DNA of 64,000 bases, from positions 3,159,001 through 3,223,000 of the forward strand of contig NZ_CP116967.1 in NCBI RefSeq assembly GCF_032050975.1, written 5' to 3'. Within the stretch, counting starts at the first letter, position 1. Each line of letters starts with the position of its first letter. The notes below the pieces were generated by a model. It saw nothing but the letters and a program-made list of their open reading frames with translations. It was not told the DNA's origin and ran no database searches. A program made the translations under genes and the position numbers. This DNA comes from Candidatus Nitrospira allomarina (GTDB lineage Bacteria > Nitrospirota > Nitrospiria > Nitrospirales > UBA8639). Below are positions 40,483 to 49,001 of the stretch, piece after piece.

Positions 40483-40532
40483 CAGCAACTATCAATCAGC
40501 GTTAGTTGATCGGTAAGAAGAATGGGGTATTT

Positions 40533-41423
40533 ATGGTCCGCACAGGTCTTTCTGCATGGAGACTTCCTGTCCTTCTCCTTGCTCTTTTAATCGTGGTGCT
40601 TTTTTCGCCATTCCAATTGGCCTTTGCAGGTGGAGCTGAAGGCAATCCTGTGAAGGTGACGGATGTCACCCACGGAGATCCCGCCGCGAAGTTCTTACAC
40701 AGGGGTACTCTTCCATCGGTCGATGATGTTCCTGCAGGCCCAAAGGGCGAGGCCATTCGGTACGGATTTGAACTTATTGTCCACACGCAGCAGCATTTAA
40801 AAGAGTATGTCGGAAACAGTCTGACATGTCAGAATTGCCACCTTGGTGCCGGGCGAACTCCCCATGCCGCCCCCTTCGTAGGGCTGTATTCCCTATATCC
40901 CATCTATCGAACAAAGAATGACAAGGTCACGACCCTCGAAATGAGAATTAATTCCTGCTTCCGACGAAGCATGAACGGCAAGCCTCTTCCATATGACAGC
41001 AAAGAGATGACGGCACTGGTTAGTTACATGGCCTGGCTGTCTGAGGGAATTCCAGTTGGGATTGAAATTCCAGAACGCGGGTTCCCACGCATTGAGCCAA
41101 CCCGGCCGCCGGATCCAACCCAAGGAAAGAAGCTGTTTACGGCGAAGTGTGCGGTGTGTCATGGGCTTCATAGCGAAGACACCGCGGTTGCTCCTCATTT
41201 ATGGGGTCCATATTCTTTTAACAATGGGGCTGGTATGGCACGAATTCCCACGCTGGCCGCATTCATCAGGCACAACATGCCGCGAGACCAGGGAGACACG
41301 CTCACGAAGGATGAGGCCTATGATCTAGCCGCATTTATTTTAAGCCAACCTCGTCCGGATTTTCCCGATCGAATTCATGACTATCCGAAAGGGCATGACC
41401 CGGACAAGGCACCACTGTTCTGA
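40533..41423 (+). CDS. Dihaem c-type cytochrome, TsdA (thiosulfate dehydrogenase)-like
   Basis: About 296 residues. Signal peptide to about residue 32, first haem CQNCH at 99-103, second haem CAVCH at 206-210. Between them lies INSCFRRSMNGKPLPYDS, with Cys142 in the place where TsdA-type enzymes have the unusual Cys ligand to haem 1. TsdA oxidises thiosulfate to tetrathionate (or the reverse). The fold is also shared by SoxA-like proteins. ATG at 40533 begins a standard signal sequence; TTG at 40506 is the longer alternative. Confidence 0.88.
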   Translation: MVRTGLSAWRLPVLLLALLIVVLFSPFQLAFAGGAEGNPVKVTDVTHGDPAAKFLHRGTLPSVDDVPAGPKGEAIRYGFELIVHTQQHLKEYVGNSLTCQNCHLGAGRTPHAAPFVGLYSLYPIYRTKNDKVTTLEMRINSCFRRSMNGKPLPYDSKEMTALVSYMAWLSEGIPVGIEIPERGFPRIEPTRPPDPTQGKKLFTAKCAVCHGLHSEDTAVAPHLWGPYSFNNGAGMARIPTLAAFIRHNMPRDQGDTLTKDEAYDLAAFILSQPRPDFPDRIHDYPKGHDPDKAPLF

Positions 41424-41545: not shown

Positions 41546-43138
41546 TTAAAATGTTAATGTCGTGGAAACATAGAAATACGTTGAATTCTTGTTATTGGGT
41601 TTTCCCGGTTGTTGCAGGTTTTCAATGAAACTTCCTTTCAATAAATACGCTAAGCCCGTTTCAAATACCACGTTTTCTGTCGCGATCCAATGAGCTCGTG
41701 CCTCGAAGTGTTGTCCCAGAAATTTTCCGGCTTTGCCAGAGCGATCTTGTAGGCCCGTCCCGACCCATTGGTCCTTGGCCTGGGCAAGCCAGAAAAAACG
41801 ATGCGCCACAAAGAAGGAAAAATCCTTACTGGGTGTCAGGTGCAGACGATAACCGGGCGAGTTGATATTCGAACGACGGAAGGGGCCCCAAATACCAGCC
41901 GGATTTAATTCGAAGTTCACACCTCCAAAGAGGGTATCGAATCGTTGATCCTTATTGTCGTTGGGATTGCGGTCACCGCTGGCATAATCATATTGGACCA
42001 AAAATCGGGGAGTCCAAGGGATATCGAAGGTATAGCCGACCTCCACATGCTGGAAATGGGCAAAATGATCAAGCGTCTGAGCGCTCCCGGGTGCTTCCGC
42101 CAGATTCCCGAATTGCCAGATTGATTCAATTTCGTAATCCATCTGTCCTACGGCATTCGGTTTAAAGACGCGTAACCCCGGTGTCTGGAAATGACGCCTT
42201 CGACTGTCGGTATTGGGGGGGCGATCTGTTTCATTGAGAAAATACACATACAGATCGGTTTGGAGCCAGGAGATCTGTCGCTGCCCAAGAAAAAATCCCC
42301 AGAACATCGTTCCGTGTTCTTCAGTATCGCCTTTATTTTCAAATTGGAAAACCGGTTCGACGACAAAGCTTCGGAGATGTAATTTCTCTTCTCCCAGCGC
42401 CAAATGGAGGCCGGTGAATGAAACCGGGACATTCCGGAAGTTTCCTCTTCTGATTAATCGTCGGTTACCGAAATCCATGGTGAAACGCCCAACCGTGAGT
42501 TCGGCCGGGACTCCGAGTCCGAGGAGATTCGACGAGCCCAAGCCTCCATAGAGTTGGAGGATGTCTGTTTGATCTTCAGTCCCGCTCGGAATTGTGGATC
42601 CGTTGTCGGTTAGGAAGGCGCGGGCATCGATAAATTCCGTAAAGAAACGGATCGGATCATATCGGATTCCCAATCGCACGAGGGTATGAAGGGGAAGCTG
42701 CTGATCGCTGCCAACCTGATTGAGGCGAAACGGCTCATTATAGGTTTCGTACCGCGTGCGATGTTCAACCCCCAGATGCAACCATCGAGGTCCGTCAATC
42801 GTGTTTTCGATGGTGAAAGGACTTTTTCGCAGCACGCGTATTGATCCATCAGGTCGCATGATCGCACGCTGCTCGGTGGTTCCTTGATCTAAAATTTCCC
42901 GGTTTAATCCCGGAGACGCTTCATCGGGTTGACCTGACTGGTTGGCGGGCGTTGTGTCAGAGAGGGCTCCAATCAGAGGGCCCCCTTCAGTTCCTCCAAC
43001 TGCAGTAACTTGAATGAAAGATAGGAGCACGGCGATCGCGGAGCCGATCAAGACCGTCGTTCCGGCTTTCCGTACTACCTCAAACACGCCAACATAACTT
43101 TCTTGGCCCGATAGGGCCGATGGAAGGTAATGGGCCAC
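41546..43138 (-). CDS. Outer-membrane beta-barrel porin of the Alginate_exp family
   Basis: 530 residues. An N-terminal hydrophobic signal (about residues 28-50) is followed by a low-complexity stretch and a barrel with alternating strands, aromatic girdle residues and a C-terminal Phe (STTLTF). The start LHLGVEHRTRYETYNEPFR matches the Alginate_exp signature. In Nitrospirota many such proteins occur with no alginate genes, so the cargo is unknown. It is convergent with the TsdA-like gene and divergent from the copper oxidase. Confidence 0.85.
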   Translation of the reverse strand: MAHYLPSALSGQESYVGVFEVVRKAGTTVLIGSAIAVLLSFIQVTAVGGTEGGPLIGALSDTTPANQSGQPDEASPGLNREILDQGTTEQRAIMRPDGSIRVLRKSPFTIENTIDGPRWLHLGVEHRTRYETYNEPFRLNQVGSDQQLPLHTLVRLGIRYDPIRFFTEFIDARAFLTDNGSTIPSGTEDQTDILQLYGGLGSSNLLGLGVPAELTVGRFTMDFGNRRLIRRGNFRNVPVSFTGLHLALGEEKLHLRSFVVEPVFQFENKGDTEEHGTMFWGFFLGQRQISWLQTDLYVYFLNETDRPPNTDSRRRHFQTPGLRVFKPNAVGQMDYEIESIWQFGNLAEAPGSAQTLDHFAHFQHVEVGYTFDIPWTPRFLVQYDYASGDRNPNDNKDQRFDTLFGGVNFELNPAGIWGPFRRSNINSPGYRLHLTPSKDFSFFVAHRFFWLAQAKDQWVGTGLQDRSGKAGKFLGQHFEARAHWIATENVVFETGLAYLLKGSFIENLQQPGKPNNKNSTYFYVSTTLTF

Positions 43139-43513: not shown

Positions 43514-43520
43514 CATGGCG

Positions 43521-44441
43521 ATGGGACTGAAATCGTGGTGGGACAAGTGGCTCCGGCCTATTCACCTCACCGGTTGTATGCTGTTGGCGATGGCACTTGA
43601 TGGAACGGCACTCGCCAAAACGCAGCCGGTCAGAGATTTTACGGTGGTTGTTCAGGAAAAGACCATTGAACTGTTAGGCCAACCCAAAAAAGAAGTGACC
43701 GTCTGGGCATTTGGATTTGAAGGTCAGGAAGCCACGGTTCCGGGTCCGGTTATTCGAGTACCCATGGGGACCAGGGTGCGAGTCCATTTTAAAAATACGC
43801 ATGTGTTGCCTCATAGTATGCACTTTCATGGGGTACACCCCTTCAATATGGATGGGAACGGTATTCGGGAATTGGGCAAGGAACAGTTACAGATGCCCCG
43901 AGAGAGCTACACCTATGAATGGACTCCGGCTGCACCAGGTTATTACCTCTACCACTGTCACTTCGATACGGCTAATCATATGGACCATGGGATGTATGGT
44001 TTTTTTATTGTAGAAGATCCTGCCTGGCCTAAGGTGGACCGCGAAATACTGACAGTTTGGGACGAGTGGGACATAGATGGCGATGGACGGTACGACACGC
44101 ATACGATCAATTCCAAATCCACGCCGGACGAAGAACCCTTGACCGCCAAGGTTGGAGAGACGGTTCGCCTCGTTATGGCCAATGTCGGTGCAGAGGTCCA
44201 TGCGCCCCATATGCACGGTGTTAAATGGACCGTTCTTGACCCGGATGATCTGACTCCCATTGACAAGGATTACAATGGGGTCGTCAGCCTGGCTTCCGCT
44301 CAGATAAAAGTGGTCGAATTCGTCCCATCAAATTTGGGCACGTGGCTCTTCCATTGCCATGTGTTGCCCCATGTGGCGGATGATGGACTCTATCATCGAG
44401 GAATGCTCACCCGGCTCAACGTCCTGAAAGGACCATCGTAA
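43521..44441 (+). CDS. Two-domain multicopper oxidase, apparently type A
   Basis: 306 residues with a signal peptide to about residue 33. Domain 1 (about 35-170) has HSMHFHG (98-104) and HCHFDTANHM (145-154); domain 2 (about 175-306) has HAPHMHG (227-233) and FHCHVLPH (277-284). Each domain keeps the HCH cysteine of a type 1 copper site, which in the two-domain family marks type A. Such enzymes work as trimers with trinuclear copper between subunits. A loop DIDGDGRYD (184-192) looks like a single calcium loop. Nitrite reductases of the NirK type are close relatives, but NirK keeps type 1 copper only in domain 1. Substrate unknown; periplasmic. Confidence 0.9.
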   Translation: MGLKSWWDKWLRPIHLTGCMLLAMALDGTALAKTQPVRDFTVVVQEKTIELLGQPKKEVTVWAFGFEGQEATVPGPVIRVPMGTRVRVHFKNTHVLPHSMHFHGVHPFNMDGNGIRELGKEQLQMPRESYTYEWTPAAPGYYLYHCHFDTANHMDHGMYGFFIVEDPAWPKVDREILTVWDEWDIDGDGRYDTHTINSKSTPDEEPLTAKVGETVRLVMANVGAEVHAPHMHGVKWTVLDPDDLTPIDKDYNGVVSLASAQIKVVEFVPSNLGTWLFHCHVLPHVADDGLYHRGMLTRLNVLKGPS

Positions 44442-44597: not shown

Positions 44598-45224
44598 CTA
44601 ATTATTTTCAAATATCGGCGGTGAGGCCTCCATATCGGTTTCTCTCCAGTTGAAAAAGAAAAATGCCGTATAAACAGTTTGCGTCACCGATCCTACCTGC
44701 GGCTCGGTTGAGAGCACAAAACGACCGGATGCTCTGTCGAAAATATCAAAATAAAAGCGCACATAGCCCTGGCTTTTCACACGTTTATAGAAAGCCAATT
44801 CGGGTGTGGCTATGGGAAATATCGTTGCCTGAGTGGCCGGTAGCCCCAACAACCTCGCGTTTTGGGTCGTCCCTATAGACTCAACGATTAAATGCACACG
44901 ATAGGTTGCATCCTCTTCTTCTTCCCGAATGATCACTCCCTGTTTTCCTAGCCAACCGGCCACGACCTGCCTCATGTGATGATTGATGGCATCTCCATTT
45001 AAACTCTGGTCCACCCTCAGATCTGTAGCGGTCAGGAGGATTGATGCTTCTTTGAGAAAGCCCACATCATAATTCTTCAGGCCTTTGTTGATTGCTGAGC
45101 TGAATAACAATTGCTCGGTGGGTGTCAGGGGATCCGTCGCCTTTTTTGATGGTATGGCGCAGCCGGACAGACTCAGGATTAGCCAACAAATCATGATGCT
45201 TCGCACGGTCTTTAATCTGTTCAT
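44598..45224 (-). CDS. Lipoprotein of unknown function
   Basis: 208 residues. Signal ending LSLSGC (Cys22), a helical first third, then a beta-rich part with YRVHLIVESIGTTQNARLLG and GYVRFYFDIFDRASGRFVLS, and a hydrophobic YTAFFFFNW near the C terminus. It resembles conserved lipoproteins found near envelope genes, but I cannot name the family with certainty. It is the first of several exported unknowns up to 47.6 kb, all on the minus strand. Confidence 0.8.
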   Translation of the reverse strand: MNRLKTVRSIMICWLILSLSGCAIPSKKATDPLTPTEQLLFSSAINKGLKNYDVGFLKEASILLTATDLRVDQSLNGDAINHHMRQVVAGWLGKQGVIIREEEEDATYRVHLIVESIGTTQNARLLGLPATQATIFPIATPELAFYKRVKSQGYVRFYFDIFDRASGRFVLSTEPQVGSVTQTVYTAFFFFNWRETDMEASPPIFENN

Positions 45225-45430
45225 CTTCCCTTACTTCCTCAATTTAGAGTGATTGTCCAACTTCGTCTTGCCTCAAACGAAAACGATAGGCATGTGCCAG
45301 AGTTTCGAAGTTTCTTGCAGAGCAGTAAAAATGTTGAAAAGGCCAAGGCTAAACCTACTAATCATTACCCCCGTTACTTGCTGCGACTCATTTTAATGTC
45401 CCAACTATGCTTTGGATAAACCGGTCTCCG

Positions 45431-46084
45431 CTAAATGGCATCGCAGTCCGCGAGCAACTCTTGAATCGTTTTGTCCACCCCCTTGCCCGGCAAAACGTCG
45501 ACCCAGCATGGCTGATCAGCGCCGGCAATACATTGCTGCATGTCTGCCCAATGTGCGACCTGGGTTGATTGAGTTCCCGATGCCATTTGCATGAGGAACG
45601 TCCATGAGCCACGCTGTTTGACGAGTTCGCCGGTGCCAGTCGTAATGGTTGGGCTTTTCGGGCCGGGAAGCTCCGTTATGCCATTGAAGGAGATTTCCAC
45701 TCGCCCGCCTGGTTGACCTGGTGTACTCGGTGGTCCAGGTGTCACCGAGCCGATCATGTATTGACAGAGAGGAGGCTGGCCTTCAAATTTGACAACTACA
45801 GGCCCGAAGAAAAATCCGTCATCGAATTTCTCGATATGCCAGACCGTCTGGTCATCAATTGGCACAGTCGTATTTGGATTGCTGGGATCATCCGTGTCCC
45901 ACGTGTAGGCCTTAAGATACTCAGATGGCACGTACCAGTAGGTGCCGCCGTTTTCTCCCAGCCAGGCCCACTGAGAAGATTGTGGCTTCGAATCTCCACC
46001 CTTTGCCGTGGATTCACCATAGAATGCGGTGACCAAAATGACCGCACACGACACCATGGCAACAAGATGTTTCGATGGTAACAT
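45431..46084 (-). CDS. Exported protein of unknown function
   Basis: 217 residues with a signal peptide (HLVAMVSCAVILVTAFYG). The mature part has YWYVPSEYLKAYTWDTDD near the start, a Pro/Gly linker (PGPPSTPGQPGG) and a C-terminal stretch with cysteines (Cys185, Cys192 and Cys214 roughly). A total of four mature cysteines suggests disulfides. The gene follows the Cys-rich gene by 108 bases on the same strand. No family recognised. Confidence 0.75.
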   Translation of the reverse strand: MLPSKHLVAMVSCAVILVTAFYGESTAKGGDSKPQSSQWAWLGENGGTYWYVPSEYLKAYTWDTDDPSNPNTTVPIDDQTVWHIEKFDDGFFFGPVVVKFEGQPPLCQYMIGSVTPGPPSTPGQPGGRVEISFNGITELPGPKSPTITTGTGELVKQRGSWTFLMQMASGTQSTQVAHWADMQQCIAGADQPCWVDVLPGKGVDKTIQELLADCDAI

Positions 46085-46192
46085 TTCGTTTCCGTCCTTT
46101 TCAGAGCAAATCTTTTATTTGTCCTTGTTGGATACCGTCCCTCTACATCCAGACTATGTTCGCGGAATCATTTAGGCGTTCCGGACAGCGAA

Positions 46193-47639
46193 TTAGTTTC
46201 CACAGAGGGTGTGATTAATTTCGCATTGGGTCATAATGCCGGCGCTGGTCTGTTCGGCATTGAGGTTCACGATCGCCGCATTTGTCTGGTCGTTGATATT
46301 ATCGCACCCACAAATTTGGCTGGCACAGCAACTACATTCGGCTAGTGCCTCGACCAACGTGATTTCTGTCAATCCATTCATATCCTGGATGCCGCTGCAG
46401 GCCTCTCCCAATAACTGAGCTTCAGTTTGATGGTCCGGCGGGGGGCCGTTCTGTCCGATCCCCACGGTGGTGCATAAGGTTGCATCGCAGGAATACCCCA
46501 ACTGAATGTTGGGATCATTGGGATTATTTTCGTTGCTTGATTCATAATAACCGCAGACACTTTGACAGAGCGCCCCATCAGGATCCAATTTTGTAGTCTG
46601 TTTCCGGGTTGAACAGAGGGCATCCACTATCCCCAGGTGAATCAGGTATGCAGGGGAGGTCGGTGAGTATTATTGGGCCACCGGCGGGGTTATACGCTGC
46701 CGACCAGACATTGTCGCCTCGTCCATGGCGCTTTTTGGCACGGGAGGAAGTGGTGACGGGAGGCGGGTCGTTTGCGTTGCAACTTTGATCTCCTTGACCA
46801 ATTTGGAACGGTCCATCATAGACCGGACATTTGCACTCCACAAGGTTACGGCCGGCCGCATCTTTTTCTCCCGTGCGGTAGCAAGGCGCTGTCATGCAAC
46901 CCGCATAGACACCTTGATCCCTTCTATCTGTACACTCTGTCGAAGTGTCTTCTCCCATGCTGACGTAATCGCGTTTGTACCGTTCTGAATACACGGATAT
47001 CAGGTCGGCGCCGGGAACCAGTAAATTGGTATTGATCGCTTCACATACCGGTGGGATTCTTCCGCTATTCAGGCATTCTGCTCCTTGTTCTCCGCAGGCT
47101 TCAACTGTTTCCTGATAGATATCCAAATTGGAAATGGCATGAATATCGACGAGGTAGGACATCTTAGGAGATACCTCATCAGTAGAGATTTCGAAACACG
47201 TGCAATTAGCCAATGTTCCATCAGGGGAAAGCGTGCAGGGCAAAGAGGGGTTTTCATCACTATTCCCTGTCGGGGCATCGGGGCCTGAGTAATAGCACAG
47301 GGCATAAGAAAATGGTCTGCCGGATGGCGGGGTACATTGCAGAAAATTCGCTGCGGACGTCCAGACATTCGCATACGCAGGACCAAAATCTGTGGTTACC
47401 GTATCATTGAAAGTATATACATCACTGAGTCTCACGCCACGGAGGATCGACTTACTATATCGATGTCCATAGTTACTGGGATTGGTCTTTGAAGAAATCC
47501 CGTCACGGTGATCCCTGTCGCCGGCATAGAGATCATTGCCATTCGCCAGCATGATACCCAAAAGAATACTCAATCCGAGAAATAAGTGGCTCGCTTCCCG
47601 CCAACCCAAGCCTAAACTGATGAAGTGTTTCATATTCAA
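46193..47639 (-). CDS. Cysteine-rich exported protein, unknown, with a +1 frameshift
   Basis: Two adjacent frames join into one protein of 481 residues if one base is removed from the T4 run at 46589-46592 (A4 on the coding strand): the first reads ETDYK to a stop, the second continues KLDPDGALCQSVCGYYES. Start has a hydrophobic export signal (SHLFLGLSILLGIMLANG). The joined protein has 28 cysteines, in spaced pairs (CTCF, CKCP, CSCCASQICGC), with no CxxCH haem site. It may be a disulfide-rich secreted protein. I recognise no family. A DsbA-like gene is divergent, about 500 bases away. Confidence 0.75.
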
Positions 47640-48134
47640 CCTCCATTCCGGACATTCCTAAGCCACAAATTCTAGCGCTTCGAAATGCTTCCGGTTTTTG
47701 TGGATCACTTTCTTAATGATCTTTCTACAGCTTTTTTCCTTGTAAACGGATCGTAGGCTTCGAATCCGATGCGCACCAGGATTTTTTTCTATACAATACT
47801 CATCAGGCTTTTCCTGTTGGTATATTGCCGTTTATCCGCAATTGTGCAACGCATCTGATGTGATGCCTTCCCTGTAAGTTCATCTATCTGACCGGAATAA
47901 ACCGGATTTTTAATCGGTCGGCAGGAAAAGTCAAGGAAATTCTCGTCGAGCTCGCTTTCCCGTGGTTGTGTAATCGGTGATGAACAATCTCATTGAATCC
48001 CTCGATCTTCAGCCCATGATTTGTTACCTTCTCTTTGAGAGTGGGTTTTAATCGAGGTGGGTTGTAATAACATTTGCACGGCAGGCTGTGCGATGAATGG
48101 GCAACTCTTTATTGCAAGCTATGAAAAGGCGGAC
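47640..48134. other. Divergent intergenic region, no gene seen
   Basis: About 495 bases between the Cys-rich gene and the DsbA-like gene. No convincing reading frame, tRNA or hairpin with T tract. It must hold two divergent promoters, but I could not choose convincing boxes. Confidence 0.45.
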
Positions 48135-49001
48135 ATGAATCGACGAATTCAGGGAATTAAGAAACCGGAGAACAGCCCAGGAGAAAAAAACAGGATCTTC
48201 CGAGGACTGATCGGCCTGCTGGTGTGTGTAGGTCTGCTCATGATTAATCCTGGACCCGGCCAGGCCGTAGTTGAAGACGATGTCAGAGTCCTTCGTGAGG
48301 ATATGGAGCAGGTGAAGAAGGATCTTGCTGAAATTAAGAGCATCCTTCAGAGTGCGATAAAACGGCCAAGTCCCGAGAAAAGCACTGGCACCGTGGGTGT
48401 GACCGGGGGTGCGATGCTGGGGGAAACCGATGCGCCGGTGACGATCGTGGAATTCTCGGACTATCAATGCCCATTTTGCCAACGGTATTCATTGACGGTG
48501 TTCCCTGTGCTCAAACGTGAGTATATTGATACAGGAAAAGTTCGGTATGTCTTCAGAGATTTTCCCTTGAGCAGCATTCATCAACAAGCGGGAAAGGCTC
48601 ATGAAAGTGCGCACTGCGCCGGAGAATTCAATAAATACTGGGAGATGCATGATGCGTTGTTTCAAAACCAGAATGATCTCACCGTTCCCTCGTTGAAACA
48701 ATATGCGGCGGACCTCGGACTGGATTCTACGACGTTCGTGGAATGCTTAGATAGCGGGAAATACCAAGTTGCTATTCAGAAGGACGTTGATGATGGCGGA
48801 GCTGCGGGAATTAGAGGAACCCCATCGTTCTTTATTGGGAAAAGCGGCTCAGGAGACTCCATCACCGGAACGATTATCCGTGGAGCTCAACCGCTGGCGA
48901 AATTTCAAACCATTATCGAGCAGCTCCTCAGTGATCATGGGTCTGACGCTGGTGGTGTTTCCCCTGAATCCGATGAAAGTCCCCCCGCTCGTCTACCTTA
49001 G
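48135..49001 (+). CDS. DsbA-like thiol oxidoreductase, membrane-anchored
   Basis: About 288 residues. An N-terminal anchor or signal (about residues 22-40), a coiled coil (about 48-75), then a DsbA/thioredoxin-fold domain with redox pair CPFC at 112-115 (DYQCPFCQRYS), the cis-Pro loop GIRGTPSFFIG and the pattern FSDYQCPFC of the NhaA-fused/DsbA family. A Ser/Pro tail ends it. It probably forms or exchanges disulfides outside the cytoplasm. ATG at 48135 gives the best signal; starts at 48057 (GTG) and 48093 are possible. It faces the gene of a protein with 28 cysteines. Confidence 0.88.
   Translation: MNRRIQGIKKPENSPGEKNRIFRGLIGLLVCVGLLMINPGPGQAVVEDDVRVLREDMEQVKKDLAEIKSILQSAIKRPSPEKSTGTVGVTGGAMLGETDAPVTIVEFSDYQCPFCQRYSLTVFPVLKREYIDTGKVRYVFRDFPLSSIHQQAGKAHESAHCAGEFNKYWEMHDALFQNQNDLTVPSLKQYAADLGLDSTTFVECLDSGKYQVAIQKDVDDGGAAGIRGTPSFFIGKSGSGDSITGTIIRGAQPLAKFQTIIEQLLSDHGSDAGGVSPESDESPPARLP

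Follow-up and report, generated by a model that had tools for sequence, protein, structure and literature searches.

Two genes predicted to encode Sec-exported proteins, one of them carrying 28 cysteines, sit in "Ca. Nitrospira allomarina VA" between the members of what appears to be an older divergent pair, coding for a lipoprotein and a DsbA-like oxidoreductase (Table 1). In the reading that we consider probable, the larger product is an orphan disulfide-rich protein of the envelope or the extracellular space, the smaller one is its exported partner, and folding is provided by the general DsbA/VKOR pathway of the cell. Passages of PMC10579370 describe the organism as a marine nitrite oxidizer; its genome (G000) is a single contig of 4,553,057 bases, and the window, i.e., the whole stretch of DNA analyzed, comprises 64,000 nucleotides of it. 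All four genes that a preliminary description had placed in this part of the window were found there, among them the lipoprotein and the exported protein with four cysteines behind a signal-like N terminus.

Table 1. Features of the lipoprotein/DsbA-like locus (positions in the window)
Feature	Positions	Strand	Remarks
Lipoprotein of a Nitrospirales-wide family; older neighbor, outside the orphan pair	44598..45224	-	Lipobox LSGC
Stretch holding both orphan genes	45331..47743		Replaced by 62 bases in G015
217-aa exported protein, four mature Cys, no family match	45431..46084	-	In G000 and G011 only
28-Cys exported protein gene	46193..47639	-	One extra base near 46583-46586 splits it here; uninterrupted in the orthologues of G011 and G017
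Noncoding stretch upstream of the DsbA-like gene	47744..48134		About 77% identical in G015
DsbA-like thioredoxin-fold oxidoreductase (QCPFC, GTPSF); older neighbor	48135..49001	+	

The cysteine-rich gene is present in the window as two overlapping frames, 46578-47639 with 16 real cysteines and 46193-46627 with 12. The preliminary description had joined them into one protein with 28 cysteines and no heme motif, and this repair proved right: in two relatives, G011 and the MAG HKST-UBA08 (G017), the gene is a single uninterrupted frame of 481 and 482 residues, respectively. Since the relatives have a single open frame, a programmed frameshift was rejected. The ATG at 47633, accompanied by a Shine-Dalgarno-like GGAGG, is a better start than the TTG at 47639, and the N terminus that follows is signal-like. 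Cysteine makes up 6.3% of the mature protein, far above an ordinary exported protein; the mature chain is very acidic (pI 4.1) and rich in G, S, D, T, P, and N. The 481-residue protein lacks the CxxCH motif that would mark it as a c-type cytochrome. All 28 cysteines are common to the three orthologues, and this, together with the even cysteine numbers of the two orphans (28 and 4) and the lack of a heme motif, bears out the first of two earlier suggestions, disulfides or metal ligands: the cysteines are most likely engaged in disulfides, of which the larger protein could form up to 14. Residues 91-158 and 310-374 represent a diverged internal duplication, with an alignment score reached by none of 500 shuffled sequences. 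A six-cysteine spacing at residues 236-287 (C-x11-C-x4-C-x15-C-x-C-x15-C) resembles an EGF module, an identity that we rejected: Pfam gives no match, the PROSITE patterns PS00022 and PS01186 both fail, and the spacing is near chance (46 of 1,000 shuffles).

Codon comparison of the orthologues gave dN/dS values of 0.16 to 0.23 for the cysteine-rich gene and 0.225 for the mature part of the 217-aa protein (G000 against G011). Purifying selection on both genes indicates that each encodes a genuine protein. The first 28 codons of the 217-aa gene differ between these two genomes by 19 amino-acid-changing and 3 silent substitutions, and the mature part changes far less. Neither protein belongs to a family that we could recognize, as had been noted previously. 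Searches of Pfam, NCBIfam, PHROGs, and PADLOC with the whole proteins, and of Pfam also with pieces of them, gave no match above the cutoff for either orphan, and profile searches against the PDB returned only low-complexity or chance matches. Searches by tblastn, against plasmids with both orphans and against phages with the cysteine-rich protein, yielded nothing or chance matches, and scans of viral contigs yielded no orphan matches. A tblastn match in Vibrio lies inside an unrelated 1,620-aa protein and was discarded, as were those weak matches in other Nitrospirales that were read, which fall in unrelated frames such as those of dihydrolipoamide dehydrogenase-like proteins. No usable AlphaFold2 model was obtained for the two orphans (mean pLDDT, 28.0 and 41.6), as expected when only two to four near-identical sequences are available as homologues. 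The passages searched in two papers on marine Nitrospira (PMC10579370 and PMC8115632) do not mention the orphan proteins.

The distribution of the two genes is narrow. The cysteine-rich gene occurs in 3 of the 21 genomes of the genus (G000, G011, and G017, where the locus lies on a contig of 4,407 bases), and a profile search found no further copy in 236 genomes of the order; none was found among 396 genomes sampled from the phylum. A scan of contigs from about 85,000 species with two short peptide patterns, a weak test outside the genus, recovered only the copy of HKST-UBA08. The 217-aa gene is confined to two of the three genomes and is absent from G017, though the cysteine-rich gene is present there; the co-occurrence of the two, a check suggested in the preliminary description, thus did not hold. 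Where the site could be read in other members of the genus (G015, G018, and G004), the lipoprotein/DsbA-like pair is kept without either orphan. The site is clean in G015, in which the matches to window positions 45330 and 47744 are just 62 bases apart, so that the 2.4 kb holding both orphans is absent, and the flanking genes are intact and divergent. In G018, the same divergent pair flanks another spacer, some 690 bases long; in G004, the contig that carries the lipoprotein gene has a spacer of similar kind and ends at an apparent DsbA-like start. The noncoding sequence preceding the DsbA-like gene is, for a spacer, well conserved in G015, and the spacer of G018 and G004 differs from it; Rfam gave no RNA match. 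An NFACT-like gene neighbors the pair in G000, G011, G017, and G018. In G015, the pair (L075, 4887-6934) occupies another chromosomal location, apart from that gene, which indicates that the lipoprotein and DsbA-like genes form an older unit.

These arrangements are best read as gain, or repeated loss, of the orphan genes at a site between the lipoprotein and DsbA-like genes. In a tree of NFACT, genomes with and without the cysteine-rich gene are mixed inside one clade of five with weak internal support, so that repeated gain cannot be distinguished from a gain with subsequent loss. Composition does not point to a foreign origin, the G+C content of the orphan stretch being that of its surroundings (about 50%). 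Relatives of the lipoprotein occur in 46 of 98 related genomes, one of these relatives being a second copy in the window's own genome; the protein can therefore be regarded as a member of an old family. It is weakly similar to the DUF6655 lipoproteins (E = 0.0013), its 18.5 bits falling short of the curated Pfam cutoff of 27.

The neighboring enzyme is clearly predicted to be a Thioredoxin_4/DSBA oxidoreductase. It scores 121.1 and 69 bits with these two domains (cutoffs, 23.2 and 25.6), and its CxxC active site and cis-proline loop are kept in the orthologues. Like the solved DsbA and BdbD, it is exported and has CPFC and a T-cis-Pro loop (Pfam E = 7e-35, with PDB matches); it differs from known DsbA-like proteins in an added N-terminal stretch that is charged and probably helical, and with 142 bits it stays below the curated cutoff (190 bits) of the NCBIfam family Rcas_1661. 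From the ATG at 48135, a better start than the GTG at 48057, the N terminus reads as a potentially cleavable signal peptide (GPGQA/VVEDD). Of the membrane-anchored DsbA-like protein described at first, the DsbA-like character therefore stands and the anchoring is not established. Orthologues are found in G018, G004, and G019 and, at 63% identity, in G022, which belongs to another genus. The G015 orthologue, from a genome without the cysteine-rich gene, shares 86.5% identity with the window's protein, the same value as the orthologue of G011, which has the gene. Elsewhere in the window's genome there are three further DsbA-like matches and two VKOR genes. VKOR is known as a re-oxidation partner in bacteria without DsbB, and this complement makes a general oxidative folding pathway available.

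The preliminary description proposed that the DsbA-like enzyme is a catalyst dedicated to the cysteine-rich protein. In its full form, this proposal would have the enzyme specifically oxidize that protein, with the 217-aa protein and the lipoprotein as partners, an arrangement that we regard as rather unlikely. It draws on the adjacency of the cysteine-rich and DsbA-like genes in all three genomes having the former, and the conserved 390-base spacer could be shared by divergent promoters. However, catalyst and substrate genes of such a module should be gained and lost together, and the DsbA-like/lipoprotein pair persists without both orphans in the three genomes with empty sites. The DsbA-like orthologues of G019 and G022 likewise occur without the cysteine-rich gene, so that the co-occurrence proposed earlier as a check holds in one direction only, from the cysteine-rich gene to the enzyme. 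In addition, the DsbA-like tree, in which support is weak, does not group the genomes that bear the cysteine-rich gene, the 217-aa gene is missing from one of these genomes, and relatives of the lipoprotein occur widely. There is no sign of a private oxidative pathway for the cysteine-rich protein. Under the general folding pathway that we favor, the protein would be oxidized, like other exported proteins, by the several DsbA-like proteins of the cell, which VKOR would re-oxidize. The adjacent enzyme could act as a helper that is not specific to it; a helpful link of this kind is possible given the adjacency in every known orthologue.

A further explanation is that the frameshift marks a dispensable protein that is being lost in strain VA. 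One extra base does split the frame in the window's genome, and G018 and G004 are without the gene. Yet two relatives have it intact, and purifying selection extends to the part behind the frameshift (dN/dS, 0.06 to 0.15), suggesting either that selection maintained the frame until recently or, equally possible, that an assembly error introduced the additional base. The window's own copy may be a pseudogene in strain VA, but we consider it unlikely that the gene is a decaying or nonfunctional one.

As a product of general oxidative folding, the cysteine-rich protein would most likely act outside the inner membrane, as a disulfide-stabilized protein with a structural or binding function in the envelope or the surroundings, and the 217-aa protein would be an optional companion; the disulfides, the location, and the role we infer from sequence. 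If it were abundant at the surface or secreted, it would represent an unusual instance of extensive disulfide bonding in a nitrifier from the environment and a starting point for studying the differences between closely related marine Nitrospira, for which the genomes with empty sites offer natural knockouts for comparison. As it stands, the locus holds a taxonomically restricted exported pair beside an ordinary disulfide-forming enzyme. It is conceivable, and in our view quite unlikely, that the two genes form a lineage-restricted extracellular system of marine Nitrospira, in which a 14-disulfide protein of new fold and its small partner, matured by the adjacent DsbA-like enzyme, would serve to construct or coat a structure at the cell surface or to bind to another organism. 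The orphan pair is limited to a few marine or saline Nitrospira, and its reading as a system is not supported.

It is similarly improbable that the protein is an exported metal-binding protein that binds copper or zinc through clusters such as CSCC and CGC (residues 435-445) and is linked to the two-domain multicopper oxidase encoded at 43515-44441, beyond the lipoprotein gene, since the protein has few histidines and methionines, no metal-binding family was matched, and the oxidase gene adjoins the pair only in G000 and G011. In the stretches examined of G015, G018, and G004, this gene was not seen close to the pair, which places it outside the conserved unit, a membership that the preliminary description had left undecided. 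The window's own genome contains a second multicopper oxidase DNA match with 67% identity (G000:C1:4443369-4444112). Beyond the copper oxidase gene lie genes for an alginate-export-type outer membrane porin (41546-43138) and a SoxA/TsdA-type cytochrome c (40506-41423).
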